From positions 1-46,155 of IMG/VR virus record IMGVR_UViG_3300043449_001372: a stretch of DNA of 46,155 nucleotides, one strand, 5' to 3'. How positions within the stretch are numbered: position 1 is the stretch's first letter; each line of letters opens with the position of its first letter. Source of the stretch: a virus. The translations under genes were made by a program, and so were the position numbers. This document shows positions 357 to 9,120 of this stretch, one piece after another. Below the pieces are notes generated by a model. The model was given only the letters and a program-made list of their open reading frames with translations, was not told the origin of the DNA and did no database searches.

Positions 357-1463
357 ATGGCATTAAATTTAGTTCGTAATAGTAGAGTATTCTTCACTAC
401 AGACGTTAATAGCATTACAGGCGTAGTAGATACAGGTGCTTTAGAAAGCGCTAAAACCTGGGAAATTCAAGTTCTGGATGGACTGACTTTCTCACAAAAC
501 ACAAACCAAGAAACAGTAAACATCAACGAAGCCGGTAGCGCCCCTGTTCGTGGTCAACGCAGCTTCAACGTTAGTTTAGCTCCAGTTGACTTCTCTATGA
601 GTACGTATATGCGTCCACGCATGGGTACAACAAACGTAGAAGCAGAAGAAAGCGTATTATGGGGTGCACTATCAAGCACTACCGGAGACGGCTGGACGGC
701 TGGCGATACTAATTCTACTGTGGATTTTGATAGCAGCAATGCACACCAACTACAAAAATTTGGTTTAATTATTATCCTAGATAACGTTACTTATGTTATT
801 GATGATTGCGTGTTAACACAAGCAACAATTGATTTCGGTATTGATGCTATTGCTACAATTGCTTGGACTGGTCAAGGCAAAACCCTTCGTAAATTAAGTA
901 CTAATGCTACAGCAGCAGCAGGTACATTTGGTGGTGGTTTAACAGGTTCTTACACTCAGAAAAATACTAGCGCACCGTTTATTGCTAATAAGCTAAGCAC
1001 TGCTACTGTTTCTCGTGGCGGCACTACTTATCAAGTAGCTATTACTGGTGGTAGTTTAACTATCAACAATAACGTTACGTACTTAGTACCAGCTAACTTA
1101 GCGGTTGTTAACCAGCCAGCTACGTACTTTACAGGTACTCGCGCTATTAGCGGCAGCTTAAATGCATACCTAAAAACCGGCGGTACAACAGACACCGGCG
1201 CCCTGTTAGCATCCATGTTAGCAGACACAAGTAACGTTGAGCCTAATTTTAGCGTACAAGTTGCAATTGGCGGATCTACAAACAGCATTAAAGTTGCACT
1301 AGATATGCCAACAACTATGTTGACAATTCCAACAATTGACGTTCAGCAAGTTGTTTCTACTACAATTAACTTCACGGCTCAGGGCTCTACAGGTGGTACA
1401 GCTGGTAGCGCTTACGACATTAGCGCTACTAACGAATTAACTGTTAAGTACTACGCAGCTTAA
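357..1463 (+). CDS. Major tail tube protein
   Basis: A 368-residue protein likely to polymerise into the tail tube around the tape measure. Near the N-terminus it has the pattern seen in phage tube proteins: a segment around TWEIQVLDGLTFSQNTNQET, then beta-rich sequence including SFNVSLAPVDFSMSTYMRPR. The C-terminal third (roughly residues 200-368) is Thr/Gly/Ala-rich and ends in LTVKYYAA. An AAAGGA ribosome site lies 7-8 bases before the ATG. It sits just before the tail-assembly chaperone pair and tape measure, the canonical siphovirus order, and no sheath gene lies between, which argues against a contractile tail. The call rests on context plus sequence character. Confidence 0.8.
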   Translation: MALNLVRNSRVFFTTDVNSITGVVDTGALESAKTWEIQVLDGLTFSQNTNQETVNINEAGSAPVRGQRSFNVSLAPVDFSMSTYMRPRMGTTNVEAEESVLWGALSSTTGDGWTAGDTNSTVDFDSSNAHQLQKFGLIIILDNVTYVIDDCVLTQATIDFGIDAIATIAWTGQGKTLRKLSTNATAAAGTFGGGLTGSYTQKNTSAPFIANKLSTATVSRGGTTYQVAITGGSLTINNNVTYLVPANLAVVNQPATYFTGTRAISGSLNAYLKTGGTTDTGALLASMLADTSNVEPNFSVQVAIGGSTNSIKVALDMPTTMLTIPTIDVQQVVSTTINFTAQGSTGGTAGSAYDISATNELTVKYYAA

Positions 1464-1541: not shown

Positions 1542-1961
1542 ATGGCAAATATTTCCCTTAAAACTCTTTTAGTACCTTCAAAAACAGTAGAAGTAGAATA
1601 CCCTGGGCTAGTAGGCTTTAAAGTAAAAGTAAGCTTCTTATCCCGCGAAACCTTGGTAAACATTCGCAAGAAGGCTACAAAAACTTCTTTCAAAAATCGT
1701 CAACCTGTTGAAGAATTAAACGACGAGTTATTCTTGCAGCTTTACGTTAAAGAATCTATTCAAGGCTGGGAAGGTTTAAAGCTTTCTTATCTTGAACAAC
1801 TTGCACCGGTTGACTTAACTGGGCAAGATCCAGAAGCAGAACTAGAGTACTCAGAAGAAAACGCACTGTTCTTGATGAAAAATTCATCAAACTTTGATGC
1901 CTTTGTATCAGAAACGGTTACTGATCTGGGAAACTTTCAAACGAGCAGCGACAAGAAATAA
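1542..1961 (+). CDS. Tail assembly chaperone, short form (lambda gpG analogue)
   Basis: A 139-residue soluble protein, rich in charged residues toward its C-terminus. In siphoviruses the two-gene unit between tail tube and tape measure encodes chaperones that coat the tape measure during tail assembly. Most ribosomes should stop at TAA 1959-1961. A slippery heptamer GGGAAAC at 1928-1934, in the phase G GGA AAC, lies eight codons before the stop and should send a fraction of ribosomes into the next gene. The role is inferred from position, size and the frameshift site rather than sequence identity to gpG. Confidence 0.8.
   Translation: MANISLKTLLVPSKTVEVEYPGLVGFKVKVSFLSRETLVNIRKKATKTSFKNRQPVEELNDELFLQLYVKESIQGWEGLKLSYLEQLAPVDLTGQDPEAELEYSEENALFLMKNSSNFDAFVSETVTDLGNFQTSSDKK
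1928..1934 (+). promoter_or_regulatory. -1 programmed ribosomal frameshift site
   Basis: The heptamer GGGAAAC fits the X XXY YYZ rule and is in phase with the upstream gene (codons CTG GGA AAC at 1926-1934). Lambda uses GGGAAAG at its G/GT site. The -1 frame is open from 1925 to the stop at 2315-2317. After slippage the next codon is CTT at 1934, giving ...TDLGN-LSNEQRQEINRMLESFF..., a fusion of about 258 residues. No strong downstream hairpin is obvious. Confidence 0.8.
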
Positions 1962-1966
1962 ATAGA

Positions 1967-2317
1967 ATGCTTGAGTCATTTTTTCAGAATATGTCTGCTA
2001 AAATGACCAAGGACTTATATTTTGAAATGTGCGCAGCTCTTGGAACTGAACCTAATGAGTCTGAAATCCCTGTTGAAATCGACGACTTCCCAGAAGAGGT
2101 TCAGGAAGCCATTAATGTATACTACAAATTGCGAGATGAGTGGGACACTATGAACGGTGTTTACATGGGCAAAAGTTATACAGGCCTAAGTGATATTCTA
2201 GATATACTAGAAATACCGAAGCAAGATCGAAAGTATGTGTTGGAATGGGTGTCTATTATGGATGCCGCAAGGTCAAAAATGCTTGAAGCACAACGACCAA
2301 AATCAACTACAAAATGA
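1967..2317 (+). CDS. Tail assembly chaperone, frameshift extension (gpT-like part)
   Basis: A 116-residue acidic, helical segment, probably made mainly as the C-terminal part of a frameshift fusion with the preceding chaperone. Its frame is -1 relative to that gene and is open from 1925. The internal ATG at 1967 has no recognisable ribosome site (ATAAATAGA precedes it), which supports frameshifting over independent initiation. By analogy with lambda gpGT, the extension would bind the tail tube protein while the G part binds the tape measure. It ends just before a strong terminator. Confidence 0.75.
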   Translation: MLESFFQNMSAKMTKDLYFEMCAALGTEPNESEIPVEIDDFPEEVQEAINVYYKLRDEWDTMNGVYMGKSYTGLSDILDILEIPKQDRKYVLEWVSIMDAARSKMLEAQRPKSTTK

Positions 2318-2475: not shown

Positions 2476-5400
2476 ATGTCAGGAACAAATATAAAGATTG
2501 GTGTTGTTGTCGATGATGGCGGCAGTACCAAAAAAGTAACCAATGGAGCAGAACTACTAGCTAAAGGTCTTGATGGCGTAACCGCTTCGGCTACTAGAGC
2601 TAGTGCTGCTGTTAAAGCTGCAATGGCTCCAAGTGGTGGGTCAAAAACAAAAGAAGCTTTAAAAAATGCCACAACACCTACACAAGAAGGTCTAGAATAT
2701 GGGCGTGCCCGTGCTGCTGTAGGTACTGGTGCTGCTGGGCGAGATTTTGCAAATCAGGCTCAAGGTCTTGGCGGGTTAGTTCGTTTATATGCTACTTACG
2801 CTGCTAACCTATTTGCTGTTAGTGCGGCTTTTCGCGCATTGAGCGAAGCCATGGACACATCAAACATGGTTAAGGGGCTAGATCAGTTAGGTGCCGCAAC
2901 GGGTAGAAATTTAGGTGGTTTAAGTAAGCGTTTGGTAGAGCTTACCGATGGTGCAATCAGCTTCCGCGAAAGTATGCAAGCAGTAGCCCAAACCACTAGC
3001 GGTGGAATGAGTTCAAAAAATATAGAGCGTTTGGCTTTGGTTGCTAAAAATGCAAGTATGGCCCTTGGTGTATCTATGCCGGACGCCATAACTCGTTTAA
3101 GTCGTGGTATTACTAAGCTTGAACCTGAACTACTGGACGAACTAGGTATTATGACTAAAATTGGTCCTGCTACCGAAATGTATGCTCGTCAAGTAGGTAA
3201 AGCTGCCAGCCAGCTAACAGATTTTGAAAAACGTCAAGCTTTTGCTAACGCTGTACTAGCTGAAGGTGAAGAAAAGTTTGGGGTATTAGGTGCTTCAGCT
3301 GCTAATCCATACGATAAACTATTAGCTTCATTAAAGAACGTATCTCAGGCAGGATTAGAGGTAGTAAATAAGGTACTGGGCCCTCTTACTTCAATACTTG
3401 CCTCTAGCCCAACAGCGCTCGCAGCCGCAATAGCAGCAATAGGTATAGCACTAGTAAAACAAGCTTTGCCGGCTATTGGAGAGTTTAAAGCAGGTTTGGC
3501 CGCAGCTGCTGACAAAGCAACACAGCTATCTGTTAAAAAAGCCGAAGATGCTGCTAATGCTCGCACAAAGATTAATGCCAAAATCATTGCAGATGCAGAA
3601 CAGCGCGCTTCAGATGAGGTTAATGCTGTTGATAATGCAGAAGCAAAAATCGCCCAATTACGCGATGCCGGATATAAAAAGAATAGTTTAGCCGCAAAGT
3701 TACTATCACAAGACTTAGAAGATATAAAAGAAAAAGATCTTAAAAAGCAAGAAGCTATTGCAAAAGGCCAAGCAACAATGGCCAATAAGTTAGCTACTGA
3801 AGGCGGAGACCCTGCTGCCATAAAAGCTTTAAGAGTACAGTCTGATGCTAATATGGAAGTTGCTGCGAGCCTTCGTGGTGCAATTAAAGCACATGAAGAT
3901 TACAAGGTAGCAGTAGATAACGCTATAAAAGACAGTGAAAAAGCGGCTAAGGGCCACAGTATATATGGACTAACAGTAGAGGCGGCTAGAAAAGCACAAG
4001 ATGCTTCTACAAAGAAAAGCATCATTAGTAATGCTGCGTATAATGGAAGTCTTATAGGTATGAATGGTGCCTTTAAGTTAATGCAAGCAGATATTGAAGC
4101 TTCTGGTCTTTCGTTAAGTAAGTGGGAAACCAGAATCTTAAAAGGCAAGGCTGGTTTAGCCATGTTTGTAGGCGTATTAGGTACTGTAGGTGGTGCAATT
4201 AGTTCCGCATTAAACTGGATAGGACTTATCACAGCCGCAGTAGGCATGCTAGACATGTGGTGGAGCAAAAACGCCAAAGACATGGAAACATTTAACAGTG
4301 CAATAACATTGGTGAATGATTCAGTTGAAAATGCTTCAAGAACTATTGATGTATTAAATAAAAAGGGTGGTTACTCTAACTCAACCATTGAAGGTATATC
4401 CGCAATGGCAAATGCACTAAATGAGTTGGCAACCTCTGCGGAAGCTGCCGTTAATGCAGCTACCAAAGCCAAAGCATCCATGGGTGTTTGGGATAAAATC
4501 AAAAACTCATTCTTTAGTGCTTTTGGTGGTGGCGTAGATAAGAATTTAGCTAAAGCTCTTAGCGTTGATGTTGAAAGTGCGTTAAATATTTTACGTCGCT
4601 CCGGACTAGGTGATAAAGCTGAGTCTACATTTAAATCATTACTAAACGTAGAAGCATTAGATGTAGAAACAGTTAGAAAAGCTATATTAGGTTTGTCTGA
4701 AGACGGACTACAAAAGTTTGTAGTTGGGTTTAATAAAGCCAATACAGAATTAAATAATGGTAGCTCAAGACTTAATAGTTTTAAAACTGCCACGGAAAAT
4801 ACTACTAAAGCATATCAAGACTTTATCGTATCAACTGCAAATACTAACCCAATGTTTAAGTTAGGTGCTTCATTAGAAAACCTAACCCAAACCATGTTAG
4901 TTTTACAAAGTGAAGGTGTAGATGAACTAAAAGCAGCAATGCTAGACTTGGAAAAGTCTCCTGAAAAAGCTGCATTGTTTGGTGACGCTTTTGTAGATAG
5001 ATTAGTTGAAATAAAAGAAGGTTTCCAAGATCAAGCAACAGCTGTTGGAGCCTATACTAATAGACTGTCTGAGTTAAATGCTGAAATAGAAAAGAATAAA
5101 TCAATTTTACCAAAAGGTTATGACTTTGAAAAAGATCCAAGTAAATTAGCCGTTGGAGGTACTGCTGGACAGTCTACTGCTATTAATGCGTTAAAACAGC
5201 TATCCAAAGACAAAAAAGTAATTGAGAATACGCTAGACTTACTACCAAAAGATAAGATCGTTGCCGCTAAAAATCTATTTAGTGAAGGCATTAGTGCTGC
5301 ATTTAAAGAGTCAAGTAGGCTAATGGACGTAGCTCTAGGTCAAAGTGCTGAAAAAGCTGCTATTACTATAGGTAAAGCAAAATTAGCTGGACTAACCGGC

Positions 5401-8400
5401 GAAGAACGCGCAAAAACAGAATCAGCATTAAATCAGCAAGAGTTAATGCTAAGAGAAACAGCTATTAATACTAACATTGATCTAATACTAAGTCAGGAAC
5501 GTTTAACCGCAGCTATAGATTCTAGCACAGCAGAGAGTGCTCTATCTAGAGCAGAAGCCAAAGGATTAAAGGGTCCAGAACTACAGGCATTTAAAGACCA
5601 GGCAGATGCTGCTAACTTATTTAAGGACTTACTTGGCAAAAAAGGCGGCAAAGTAAACCTTGGTAATATTACTGCACAAGAAGGTGATACTGTTGGGGCT
5701 ATGGTTATGGCAAAAGCTATGCCAGTGCGTCAGCGTTTAGCACAACAACAAGCATCTTTAACAGAACTTGGTGGCGAAAAAGGTGCCGAAGCTGTTCGTG
5801 GAAAAATAGCAGAAGAAGCCGGAAGATTAGAAGATACACAAAAACGTCTGGGACTAGAGGCATCTATAACCCAGGTACTGCAAGCTAGACAGAGTATAGT
5901 TGCTAGTATAGTGGGTATTGCCAGTGAGCAATCAATTTTAGATCAGAATGAGTTAGATCGTAAATCTTTAACTAACAAACAGCTATCAGAAATTTCTGCT
6001 ATTAATACAGCCATTAAAAATGCAACCAGTGATACAGAGCGCGAAAAGCAAAAAGGGTATAAAAACCTAATTTTACAAAAACAAGTAGAAGAAGATACTA
6101 ATTTAGCTCTACAACAAAGACAAAGACTACTAAGCTTAGAGTTGGATAGTATTAATAAGAGATACGAAGTAATTAGAGTTACTCGTGAATTAGAAAATAC
6201 CAAACAAACAGGTAGATTAGATGTACTAAACCAAGAGTTAGCCTCTTATTCTAAATTATATGAAATGTCCGAGGGTTTCACAAATACTCAGCAATTTATT
6301 GTTGATAAAAAGCGTACTGAATTAGAGGCTACTAATGCTATTAGAGCGGCAGAAGAGTCTATGCAGCAGAAACGCGATGAAGCCGATGCCAAGAAGAAGG
6401 CTCTAGACCCAACTTCTACTACCTTTGTGGCGGATACGTTAGTCATAGATCAAGAGCTTACTAGACAGCAAAAATTAACGGATGCAATAATAGCTACAGC
6501 TAATGCACAAAAATCATCTAAGCTAGATATATTGAACATCGTAAAACAGACAAACATAGAGCAAGAAAGATATAATCAATTAATAGCAACTTCAGTTACT
6601 TTTGCCGATTCATTAAAGTCAGTATTTGGTGATTTAGGAGAAAAAGTTGGCGGATTTACTTCCGCTCTAACAGAAGTAACTGCACAGACAGAGAAAAATG
6701 CTGCTGCAATGAAATTAGCTGGAAAAGCTAAACAAGCTGCTTATGATAGCCAAGACGTCGAGCAAATAGCTGCAGCAGAAGCTGGTTATGATGCACAAAA
6801 GCGTAAGTCGCAAAAAGATGAGCTTAGTGGCAACTTAAAGTTAGTATCTTCCGCTAAGACTATGTTTAAGGAAAAAACTTTAGCATATAAAGCTCTAGAT
6901 AAAATAGAAAAAGCAATGCACTTATATCGCCTAGCAATGGATGCTAAAGAATTAGCTTTCAAAATAGGTAATATGATAATGGGTACTACAGCTAAAGCTG
7001 GTGCTGAAGCTGCTGATACTGGTCTGACTTTTGCTGGTGTTGCTGCTCGTTTACCAGCATATGCTGCAGAGATATATGGTAAAACTATTGGTCAGTTGGG
7101 CCCAATAGCCGGGCCCGCTGTTGCAACAGCTTTGGTAGCAGCTATGTTTGGTTTATTTGGTAAGGGCGGAGGTGGCGTTGCTACTTTTGTACCTAATGCA
7201 GAGCAGCGCCAAGAAACTCAAGGTACTGCAATGGGATATGATTCTCAAGGCAATAAAGTTCAAGTACGTCGGGGAGTATTTGGAGATACAGAAGCTAAAT
7301 CAGAGTCGATCGCTAATTCTTTAGAAATTATCAAAGACAATAGTGTAGACGGACTAAGCTACGATAATCGTATGCTTGAGCTACTTACAAGTATTGACAA
7401 CGGTATTAATAGTGCTGCAAAAGGTATATTCAATATCCAAGGCTTACGTAGTGGTAGTATGTTTGGTACTGTAACAGGCACACAAAGCGGCGGCGGTTTA
7501 CTAGGTACGGGTTTCTTGGCCAGTAAAACAAGTCGAAATATTACTGATAGTGGTCTACTAATTGAAGGTACCTTCGCACAACTTGCTAGTGATACAAATA
7601 AATCTGTATTAGACTTTTTTGAACAAGTTACTGTAAGCAAGAAAAATTGGTACGGCAAAACAAAAACTTGGGTTGAAACATACCGCAAAGAAGTTGATGA
7701 TGCTACTTCTGAATTCTTTCAAGATATTTTTGGTAACGCTACTGAAATGTTCATTGAAGTAGGCAGCAAAGCAGGCATCAATGCACAGGTAGTAAATCAA
7801 GTATTAAACAATTTAGATCTTGGTCAGTCTTTTGCTAGTTTACGCGGACTAAAGGGCGAAGAGTTCCAAACAGAGCTTAGCGCTATTATTGGCAGTGTAT
7901 TGGACGATGCTAGTTCCAAAATTTTTACTAGTTTTGAAAGCTACGCAAACTTTGGTGAGGGTATGCTAGAAACGGTTATTCGTGTTGTTGATACCAACGA
8001 CAAGATAAACCAACAAGTAAAAAATCTGGGTATAAACATTGCTCCACTGGGTTTTGCTATCACCGAGTCGCTTGCCGATCTTGCTGGCGGTATGCAAAAC
8101 TTCATAGATCAGAGCAACTATTTCAGAGAAAATTTCCAAACAGAGGCAGAACGTTTAGCGCCTACACAGAAAGCTGTTATTAAGCAGTTAGCTGCTATGG
8201 GATACGCTAGTGTAGATACAAAAGACGAATTCAAAGCTTTAGTAAAAAGCTTAGACCTTACTAACGATAATGCTCGTCAGACGTATCAAAGCTTAATGGA
8301 TTTAGCTCCAGGATTTAATGATGTAATAGAAGGTATAACTAATGGTCTAGCTGATACAAAAGCCGGATTAGAAGACACTGTTTCTTCTTTTAGCGACTTT

Positions 8401-9120
8401 GCTAAAAATATTAAAGCTTTCCGTGAAAGTTTAATATTAAGCGCAAGCTCAACAGCTACCCCACTAGAAAAGTATGCAGAAGCAAAAACCCAGTTCGAGT
8501 CAACTTATGCACTAGCCCTGACTGGTGATAAAGATGCTATGAACAAGGTTACTAGTTCAGCTAATACTTTACTAGACCTAGGTAAATCATTGTACGCAAG
8601 TAGTGATGAATACTCTAATCTGTTTAACTATATTTCCGAGAAGCTGAGTTCCGCAGAAATCAGCGCTTTAGCTAGTGTAGACGTTGCCCAACTTCAGCTA
8701 AATGCTCTCGATAGTTCAGTTAGCTTATTGTCTGAAATTGCAGCTAATACTGCAGCAACAGCCGGCATCACAGCGCACGCCGCAGGAGGCTACGCCTCAG
8801 GCTGGGCACTAGTCGGTGAACGTGGGCCAGAAATGGTTAACTTCTCTGCTCCTGCTCAAGTATACACAGCGGATCAAACTGCTGGTATGTTTGCTCCAAA
8901 CACTGGTATGGCTCCTGCAATCGGTGCAATGGTAACAGAAATCAAACAGCTTCGTCAAGAAGTAGTACAGCTGAGAAAAGATCAACAGAAACAAACTGGT
9001 GATATTATTATCAGTAATTACGATGCTCTACAAAAATCCTCTGAAGAAATTGCAACAGCAGTTGTAGAATCTTCTCAAGATACTGCGTGGACAGCTCGTT
9101 CAAAATCCGAAATTAAGTAA
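2476..9120 (+). CDS. Tail tape measure protein
   Basis: At 2214 residues this is the largest gene in the window. It fixes tail length and is ejected into the host envelope at infection. Long Ala/Lys/Glu-rich helical and coiled-coil stretches are interrupted by hydrophobic segments near residues 310-335, 558-597 and 1540-1565. The C-terminal part carries the segment HAAGGYASGWALVGERGPEM followed by VNFSAPAQVYTADQT, a signature common at the end of siphovirus tape measures. A GGAGAAACT ribosome site precedes the ATG. At the usual 0.15 nm per residue the tail would be roughly 330 nm (inference). I see no clear peptidase or muramidase domain. It has its own promoter (2371-2399) and ends at paired hairpins. 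Confidence 0.95.
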   Translation: MSGTNIKIGVVVDDGGSTKKVTNGAELLAKGLDGVTASATRASAAVKAAMAPSGGSKTKEALKNATTPTQEGLEYGRARAAVGTGAAGRDFANQAQGLGGLVRLYATYAANLFAVSAAFRALSEAMDTSNMVKGLDQLGAATGRNLGGLSKRLVELTDGAISFRESMQAVAQTTSGGMSSKNIERLALVAKNASMALGVSMPDAITRLSRGITKLEPELLDELGIMTKIGPATEMYARQVGKAASQLTDFEKRQAFANAVLAEGEEKFGVLGASAANPYDKLLASLKNVSQAGLEVVNKVLGPLTSILASSPTALAAAIAAIGIALVKQALPAIGEFKAGLAAAADKATQLSVKKAEDAANARTKINAKIIADAEQRASDEVNAVDNAEAKIAQLRDAGYKKNSLAAKLLSQDLEDIKEKDLKKQEAIAKGQATMANKLATEGGDPAAIKALRVQSDANMEVAASLRGAIKAHEDYKVAVDNAIKDSEKAAKGHSIYGLTVEAARKAQDASTKKSIISNAAYNGSLIGMNGAFKLMQADIEASGLSLSKWETRILKGKAGLAMFVGVLGTVGGAISSALNWIGLITAAVGMLDMWWSKNAKDMETFNSAITLVNDSVENASRTIDVLNKKGGYSNSTIEGISAMANALNELATSAEAAVNAATKAKASMGVWDKIKNSFFSAFGGGVDKNLAKALSVDVESALNILRRSGLGDKAESTFKSLLNVEALDVETVRKAILGLSEDGLQKFVVGFNKANTELNNGSSRLNSFKTATENTTKAYQDFIVSTANTNPMFKLGASLENLTQTMLVLQSEGVDELKAAMLDLEKSPEKAALFGDAFVDRLVEIKEGFQDQATAVGAYTNRLSELNAEIEKNKSILPKGYDFEKDPSKLAVGGTAGQSTAINALKQLSKDKKVIENTLDLLPKDKIVAAKNLFSEGISAAFKESSRLMDVALGQSAEKAAITIGKAKLAGLTGEERAKTESALNQQELMLRETAINTNIDLILSQERLTAAIDSSTAESALSRAEAKGLKGPELQAFKDQADAANLFKDLLGKKGGKVNLGNITAQEGDTVGAMVMAKAMPVRQRLAQQQASLTELGGEKGAEAVRGKIAEEAGRLEDTQKRLGLEASITQVLQARQSIVASIVGIASEQSILDQNELDRKSLTNKQLSEISAINTAIKNATSDTEREKQKGYKNLILQKQVEEDTNLALQQRQRLLSLELDSINKRYEVIRVTRELENTKQTGRLDVLNQELASYSKLYEMSEGFTNTQQFIVDKKRTELEATNAIRAAEESMQQKRDEADAKKKALDPTSTTFVADTLVIDQELTRQQKLTDAIIATANAQKSSKLDILNIVKQTNIEQERYNQLIATSVTFADSLKSVFGDLGEKVGGFTSALTEVTAQTEKNAAAMKLAGKAKQAAYDSQDVEQIAAAEAGYDAQKRKSQKDELSGNLKLVSSAKTMFKEKTLAYKALDKIEKAMHLYRLAMDAKELAFKIGNMIMGTTAKAGAEAADTGLTFAGVAARLPAYAAEIYGKTIGQLGPIAGPAVATALVAAMFGLFGKGGGGVATFVPNAEQRQETQGTAMGYDSQGNKVQVRRGVFGDTEAKSESIANSLEIIKDNSVDGLSYDNRMLELLTSIDNGINSAAKGIFNIQGLRSGSMFGTVTGTQSGGGLLGTGFLASKTSRNITDSGLLIEGTFAQLASDTNKSVLDFFEQVTVSKKNWYGKTKTWVETYRKEVDDATSEFFQDIFGNATEMFIEVGSKAGINAQVVNQVLNNLDLGQSFASLRGLKGEEFQTELSAIIGSVLDDASSKIFTSFESYANFGEGMLETVIRVVDTNDKINQQVKNLGINIAPLGFAITESLADLAGGMQNFIDQSNYFRENFQTEAERLAPTQKAVIKQLAAMGYASVDTKDEFKALVKSLDLTNDNARQTYQSLMDLAPGFNDVIEGITNGLADTKAGLEDTVSSFSDFAKNIKAFRESLILSASSTATPLEKYAEAKTQFESTYALALTGDKDAMNKVTSSANTLLDLGKSLYASSDEYSNLFNYISEKLSSAEISALASVDVAQLQLNALDSSVSLLSEIAANTAATAGITAHAAGGYASGWALVGERGPEMVNFSAPAQVYTADQTAGMFAPNTGMAPAIGAMVTEIKQLRQEVVQLRKDQQKQTGDIIISNYDALQKSSEEIATAVVESSQDTAWTARSKSEIK

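Follow-up and report, generated by a model that had tools for sequence, protein, structure and literature searches.

Phage lambda shifts frame at the slippery heptamer GGGAAAG. Its tape measure chaperone gpG/gpGT is produced by a programmed −1 shift near the end of the first open reading frame, with the second half read only after the shift, as described in the relevant passages of one account (PMC5009743), which also propose GGGAAAC for the archaeal virus HCTV-1. GGGAAAC has been proposed for the same role in Burkholderia phage KL1 and Caulobacter phage Colossus, according to the available excerpts. Excerpts of a second account (PMC3498833) mention phage Mu gpGT as a case of programmed −2 shifting, and describe influenza A virus PA-X, in which +1 slippage at UUU_C of the sequence UCC_UUU_CGU, with CGU in the A site, was shown by mass spectrometry. 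In the T5 group, the genome announcement of phage Sugarland (PMC6256483) reports a chaperone, like that of T5, without a predicted frameshift signal, and cites Zivanovic 2014 for this. The term 'frameshift' is absent from three T5 structure papers, and a full-text literature search, with most subscription papers outside its scope, returned no report of a frameshift for T5-type chaperones among the matches listed.

The locus described here lies in a window that spans an entire virus record, 46,155 bases long, which may itself be a fragment. As in the lambda G/GT kind, two overlapping reading frames, here called ORF1 and ORF2, stand between the tail tube and tape measure genes, with the same gene role and a predicted −1 shift near the end of ORF1; however, the heptamer in the window ends in C, and the searches brought up no sequence relationship with lambda G or T. 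The window shares both its heptamer and its gene role with KL1 and Colossus, which belong to other phage groups, and on both sides these are predictions only. The T5.143/T5.142 pair of the Demerecviridae (phrog_313 and phrog_3914) has both halves homologous to those of the window and also lies near the tape measure gene, but there ORF2 is in the +1 frame, TTT CGN stands at the homologous codon, and a further tail gene is present between the tube and chaperone genes.

A predicted −1 frameshift in the tail assembly chaperone genes

The features of the locus are listed in Table 1. The earlier note had proposed a lambda-type −1 frameshift at GGGAAAC in exact slippery phase near the end of the first chaperone, and both the phase and the position between tail tube and tape measure genes are borne out. 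The heptamer is read in ORF1 as CTG GGA AAC TTT CAA, with its first G at codon position 3. The −1 frame is bounded by a TGA at 1922–1924 and is therefore open from 1925, as had been noted, to a stop codon at 2315–2317, and the length of the joined product, given earlier as about 258 residues, was counted at exactly that. The overlap holds a single in-phase heptamer of the form X XXY YYZ (Y = A or T), which is GGGAAAC; the other in-phase heptamer in ORF1, TTTAAAG at 1775, comes before the −1-frame TGA and thus outside the open stretch.

Table 1. Coordinates of the chaperone locus and neighbouring genes in the window.
Feature	Coordinates	Strand	Basis
Major tail (tube) protein, upstream of chaperone	357..1463	+	phrog_3575, E 7.3e-64
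ORF1, tail assembly chaperone, 139 aa (0-frame product)	1542..1961	+	phrog_313, E 2.6e-18
Predicted 258-aa fusion (1542–1934, then 1934–2314)	1542..2317	+	Frame translation
ORF2, chaperone second half, −1 frame, entered from 1934	1925..2317	+	phrog_3914, E 2.3e-17
Slippery heptamer G GGA AAC, predicted −1 frameshift site	1928..1934	+	Phase and conservation
TTT (Phe) directly 3' of the heptamer	1935..1937	+	Homologous to the TTT of the T5-type TTT CGN +1 site
Tail length tape measure protein, 2214 aa, downstream	2476..9120	+	phrog_3779, E 5.7e-47 (first 600 aa scanned)

We propose that this chaperone pair is expressed as a bulk ORF1 product together with a minority 258-residue GT-like chaperone made by −1 slippage on G GGA AAC, a reading to which we assign a probability of about 0.93; the site itself is real and almost certainly used. 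We infer the slippage from the sequence, and the roles of ORF1 and of the fusion are assigned by analogy with lambda G/GT. ORF1 would be made in bulk as a G-like chaperone coating the tape measure protein. A minority of ribosomes would slip back by one base, with tRNA-Gly and tRNA-Asn re-pairing on GGG and AAA, and these ribosomes would pass the ORF1 stop and add the 127-residue domain of ORF2, giving a product expected to connect the tape measure with subunits of the tail tube. The rate may be low with a heptamer ending in AAC because, in the relevant excerpts of PMC5009743, A_AAA_AAG shifts much more than A_AAA_AAC in a synthetic Escherichia coli context. The site in the window is a tidy fresh example of a widespread and already known tail-gene frameshift.

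Relationships of the two halves

The term lambda-type holds for mechanism and gene position only; in sequence the pair is of the T5 type, and no lambda G or T family was found among the Pfam and phrog matches. Among named phages ORF1 is closest to those of the T5 type (722 records), with identities that all stay under 60% and reach about 41% at best among the matches listed; with Serratia phage Slocum ORF1 shares 40.5% identity (E 2e-27). ORF2 is homologous to its T5-type counterpart, with an hhalign probability of 99.5%. At the DNA level, named phages matched the 357–2317 region only over a short piece of the tube gene, in nine records, and scans of genome_contigs found no cellular or prophage relatives.

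Two Pfam families match members of the group weakly, Phage_TAC_5 in 26 of 42 (best 0.006) and DUF1799 in 6 of 40 (best 0.001), both below cut-off in the window. Among 998 chains aligned in VIA to the AlphaFold model of ORF1 (pLDDT 87.6), YqbN (3klu) ranked first with Z 5.5 and the HK97 tail assembly chaperone (2ob9) second with Z 5.0, the next chain being at 2.4. We take YqbN to be a chaperone on account of its XkdN-like family. A Z below 8 is not decisive, and this likeness in the model is suggestive only. Foldseek placed both 3klu and 2ob9 at E > 1 for ORF1, its best E values against the PDB being 0.6 for ORF1 and 1.4 for ORF2, and a profile search of PDB sequences returned weak unrelated matches only.

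Conservation and replacement of the slip site

A first scan of IMG/VR with ORF1 gave 215 matches, of which 80 were kept; ORF2 is in the −1 frame in all 80, with GGGAAAC at the same place in 77 and AAATTTT or AAATTTC in the other three. The full set of 230 sequences, the window included, was drawn from IMG/VR scans and 19 named T5-type records and classified with HMMs. Both halves were present in 229, one sequence (L153) being dropped for lack of an HMM match. Some contigs are present twice and some IMG/VR entries probably duplicate genomes of the named records, and a 180-nt key leaves 156 distinct sequences (115 −1 and 41 +1); for alignments and trees near-identical and truncated loci were dropped, leaving 94 representatives below 92% identity and with at least 100 residues of ORF2. 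ORF2 is in the −1 frame in 182 of the 229; the other 47 (19 named records and 28 from IMG/VR) have it in the +1 frame.

All 182 −1-frame sequences contain an in-phase heptamer inside the overlap: GGGAAAC in 152, AAATTTT in 25, GGGAAAG in four and AAATTTC in one. The retention of heptamer and phase in homologues, which the earlier note had put forward as a check, is thus seen throughout this class. The six bases GGGAAA are invariant in all 70 representatives of that type, including positions that are synonymous or wobble in ORF1, and the slip-site glycine codon is GGA in all 70, while other conserved glycine columns use several codons. Among the 78 −1 representatives only three kinds of codon triple occur: GGA-AAC-TTY (67), GGA-AAG-TTT (3) and GCA/TCA-AAT-TTY (8). 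In the last eight, and in those alone, the glycine is replaced by alanine or serine (GCA or TCA) and the next asparagine codon is AAT, so that as GGG is lost an A AAT TTT or A AAT TTC heptamer arises one codon downstream. This coupled replacement has a Fisher p of 4e-11, with sequences treated as independent and kinship uncorrected, and on the tree it amounts to four changes between the GGGAAA and AAATTT types, three of them forced by starred branches; there is a single change to GGGAAAG. One slip site has here given way to a second, which is what selection for slippage itself would be expected to produce.

The opportunity to enter the −1 frame is narrow. In 25 of the 72 distinct first-scan sequences a stop codon of the −1 frame ends 3 nt ahead of the heptamer, and in all 72 the 0-frame stop begins 19–43 nt after its first base, so that entry is possible only within a short stretch. 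The phenylalanine column 3' of the heptamer is invariant in a 15-sequence alignment.

Initiation signals, selection on ORF2 and possible stimulators

The downstream gene had been noted to lack a ribosome site, and in the window the Shine-Dalgarno (SD) pairing of the ATG at 1967 is indeed only −0.7 kcal/mol, whereas the tape measure and ORF1 starts reach −7.3 and −4.0, respectively. Across the −1 class, strong SD pairing is found at 3% of 115 first ORF2 ATGs vs 94% of 100 tape measure starts. The missing SD is not decisive alone, because the ORF1 starts of the −1 clade are also weak (strong in 26% of 111); tape measure starts of the +1 clade, picked by script, are strong in 15% of 40. In the segment that separates the ORF1 stop from the first ORF2 ATG, 54 pairs of −1-class sequences show 93, 73 and 154 differences at codon positions 1, 2 and 3 of the ORF2 frame (chi-square p 6e-8), and dN/dS in these pairs is 0.27 before the ATG vs 0.13 after it. 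On these substitution patterns, ORF2 upstream of its first ATG in the −1 class is evolving as protein.

A conserved downstream structure was not found in the −1 class, where the mean fold z of 77 sequences is −1.03 vs −0.86 for the control, and alifold on 40 of the 78 −1 representatives gave no structure; the +1 class has a mean z of −1.41 (16 sequences) vs −0.62. In the window itself the 86 nt 3' of the site form a slightly more stable fold than shuffled versions do (z −2.07, 7/200), and an Rfam scan of the window returned nothing. The 20 nt 5' of the −1 heptamer pair with the anti-SD at a mean of −4.23 kcal/mol, stronger than 19 of 20 upstream control positions, and an SD-like element here is a possible weak stimulator. 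SD-like pairing 5' of the +1 site (mean −2.59 kcal/mol) is within controls.

T5-type relatives and a predicted shift in the opposite direction

In the T5-type loci (L082–L100, L101–L126, L154–L155, L231–L236, and T5.143/T5.142 of T5, AY543070) ORF2 is in the +1 frame, and TTT CGT or TTT CGA is present at the homologous phenylalanine just 5' of the ORF1 stop. A script found TTT CGN near the ORF1 end in 46 of the 47 +1-class sequences, and the 47th, Aeromonas phage Akh-2 (L090), has TTT CGA by eye. T5 itself and five more named records also contain TTT CGN, making 25 of 25 named records examined, most of them Demerecviridae, two without a family and one under Straboviridae. The Straboviridae entry is L235 (Klebsiella phage vB_Kpn_AM_K6, PP355768), a 261-kb record with a Sugarland-like tail module, perhaps a mixed assembly. 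The chaperone reading frame of Akh-2, which is unannotated, is interrupted by an in-frame TAG at about 1163, a sequencing error or a sign of a decayed gene, and this locus, with its TTT CGA downstream of the TAG, was therefore left out after classification. A joined CDS is annotated at the chaperone pair in none of the 25 named records.

Codon choice at the predicted +1 site is strict. In the 16 +1 representatives the shift-site phenylalanine is always TTT, with TTT:TTC ratios of 10:5 and 10:6 in two other conserved phenylalanine columns, and the shift-site arginine is CGT in 13 and CGA in three, never AGR; TTTCG is the longest invariant run of the +1-class ORF1 alignment. A codon-choice product calculated for 14 lineages taken as independent serves as a rough guide only. 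The retention of CGN in the A site is puzzling, given that CGT is not rare among the arginine codons of these genes (52 of 184 in 15 representatives). The +1 frame stays open across the segment that separates the ORF1 stop from the first ORF2 ATG, and this segment has about the same dN/dS as the gene body (0.126 vs 0.133), with differences of 21/16/73 at the three codon positions before the ATG (p 2e-12), both in 16 close +1 pairs. The first ORF2 ATG lies 78 nt after the shift in 28 of the 41 distinct +1 sequences; there is no ATG, GTG or TTG before the 78-nt point in 27 of them, and an earlier GTG or TTG within 54 nt in six. The annotated start of T5.142 lies 61 nt after T5.143, and the predicted T5 fusion would have 129 + 148 = 277 residues.

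We consider it probable, though with less confidence than for the window, that the T5-type pair, that of T5 included, is expressed by a +1 shift at UUU_CGN on the phenylalanine codon that follows GGGAAAC in the window clade, the P-site tRNA-Phe sliding from UUU to UUC. We infer this from frame, motif, codon choice and selection, and it would be more surprising than the −1 site of the window. The motif class is that of PA-X, with UUU_C in the P site and CGN in the A site; however, PA-X belongs to a eukaryotic virus and an independent origin is assumed. The motif is not that of the window, which lacks the features of the class, its ORF2 being in the −1 frame and its sequence at this point reading TTT CAA. 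A −2 shift, which leads to the same frame, was considered for the T5 clade and set aside by reasoning only, since a tRNA moved back by two bases on TTT CGN would seem to pair poorly, while UUU to UUC is cognate. An in-phase CCCAAAA occurs near the ORF1 end in 15 of the 47 +1-class sequences and cannot serve ORF2, because the −1 frame closes within a few codons in the sequences looked at.

Homologues without GGGAAAC, which the earlier note took as counting against the site, do occur, some with a replacement heptamer one codon downstream and the T5 group with TTT CGN and the opposite frame. In our judgement these strengthen the case for a selected frameshift rather than refute it. In a quick tree of the 94 joined proteins a single branch separates the +1 and −1 classes (SH-aLRT 100, unrooted), and a tree of ORF1 only that includes L152, unrooted and with many long branches, also has one direction change. 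The direction of frameshifting thus appears to have changed a single time, with the fusion retained throughout. L152 is a long-branched −1-class sequence with A AAT TTT, 37% identical to a Vibrio T5-type ORF1 and up to 49% identical to the window clade, and may lie near the point of this change. A change of direction has precedent in a fungal gene whose frameshift direction differs between species, according to the excerpts available (PMC5009743).

The value of these observations is comparative, with two opposite recoding events predicted for one gene pair, at one codon position, in two siphophage clades that are sisters. Should the T5-type shift be real, T5 gains its missing GT-type chaperone and the frameshift signal that it reportedly lacked, the annotated 5' end of T5.142 is too short, and a +1 motif known from eukaryotic viruses (the PA-X-type UUU_CGN) works in bacteria. 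How the direction can change without loss of the fusion is a question within reach of a small set of reporter constructs.

Alternative explanations

ORF2 of the window could instead be a separate protein translated from one of the internal ATGs at 1967, 1991 and 2003, through either termination-reinitiation or an SD-less start, with the heptamer incidental. The ATG at 1967 sits 5 nt past the ORF1 stop, where a restart is possible in the window itself, and most relatives have an ATG at about the conserved M of MTK; however, an ATG at the place of 1967 is the first one in just 23 of the 115 distinct −1 sequences, and conservation argues against termination-reinitiation at this codon. Annotation lends the internal start some support, in that among the 25 named T5-type records ORF2 starts inside the overlap in five, is unannotated in Akh-2 and starts downstream of the ORF1 stop in the others (as for T5.142). 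The higher dN/dS before the ATG than in the body of the −1-class genes is a point against the frameshift reading. An internal start nevertheless has to contend with the lack of SD pairing at the first ORF2 ATG and with protein-level selection upstream of it, and it leaves both the in-phase heptamers in 182 of 182 sequences and the coupled codon change unexplained; we regard it as unlikely.

Joining of the two frames at the RNA level, by RNA polymerase slippage or a programmed indel, would yield the same fusion, but there is no long homopolymer at the slip site and the conserved feature is a tandem-slippery pattern in a fixed codon phase, which is kept even where A AAT TTT has taken over one codon downstream; to our knowledge, GGGAAAC is too short for known polymerase slippage. 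We consider such joining highly improbable, and equally so a chance heptamer in a relic, with ORF2 unexpressed or the overlap a sequencing error. GGGAAAC is not rare as such (three in the window vs 3.5 expected), and 3.8% of 7014 overlapping 13-codon stretches from nine window ORFs contain some in-phase heptamer of the form X XXY YYZ (Y = A or T); GGGAAAC itself is in phase in none of them. Chance would also have to account for the same layout in 182 sequences (115 distinct), with frame, heptamer and ORF2 kept across contigs of different samples, and for the selection on ORF2.

Other features of the window

A terminator-like hairpin is present between the tail tube and chaperone genes (1484–1507), and a palindrome with a T run, read from the sequence, lies just 3' of the chaperone (2317–2346). 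A good sigma-70-like promoter, TTGACT-17-TATAAT, is found 5' of the tape measure gene (2371–2399), although chance alone would also yield sites of this kind. A separately regulated transcript may carry the chaperone pair. On the minus strand between 33385 and 46081 the window encodes ribonucleotide reductase, exonuclease, SbcC/SbcD-like nuclease, helicase and DNA polymerase genes, a set that we take to recall the T5-like phages.
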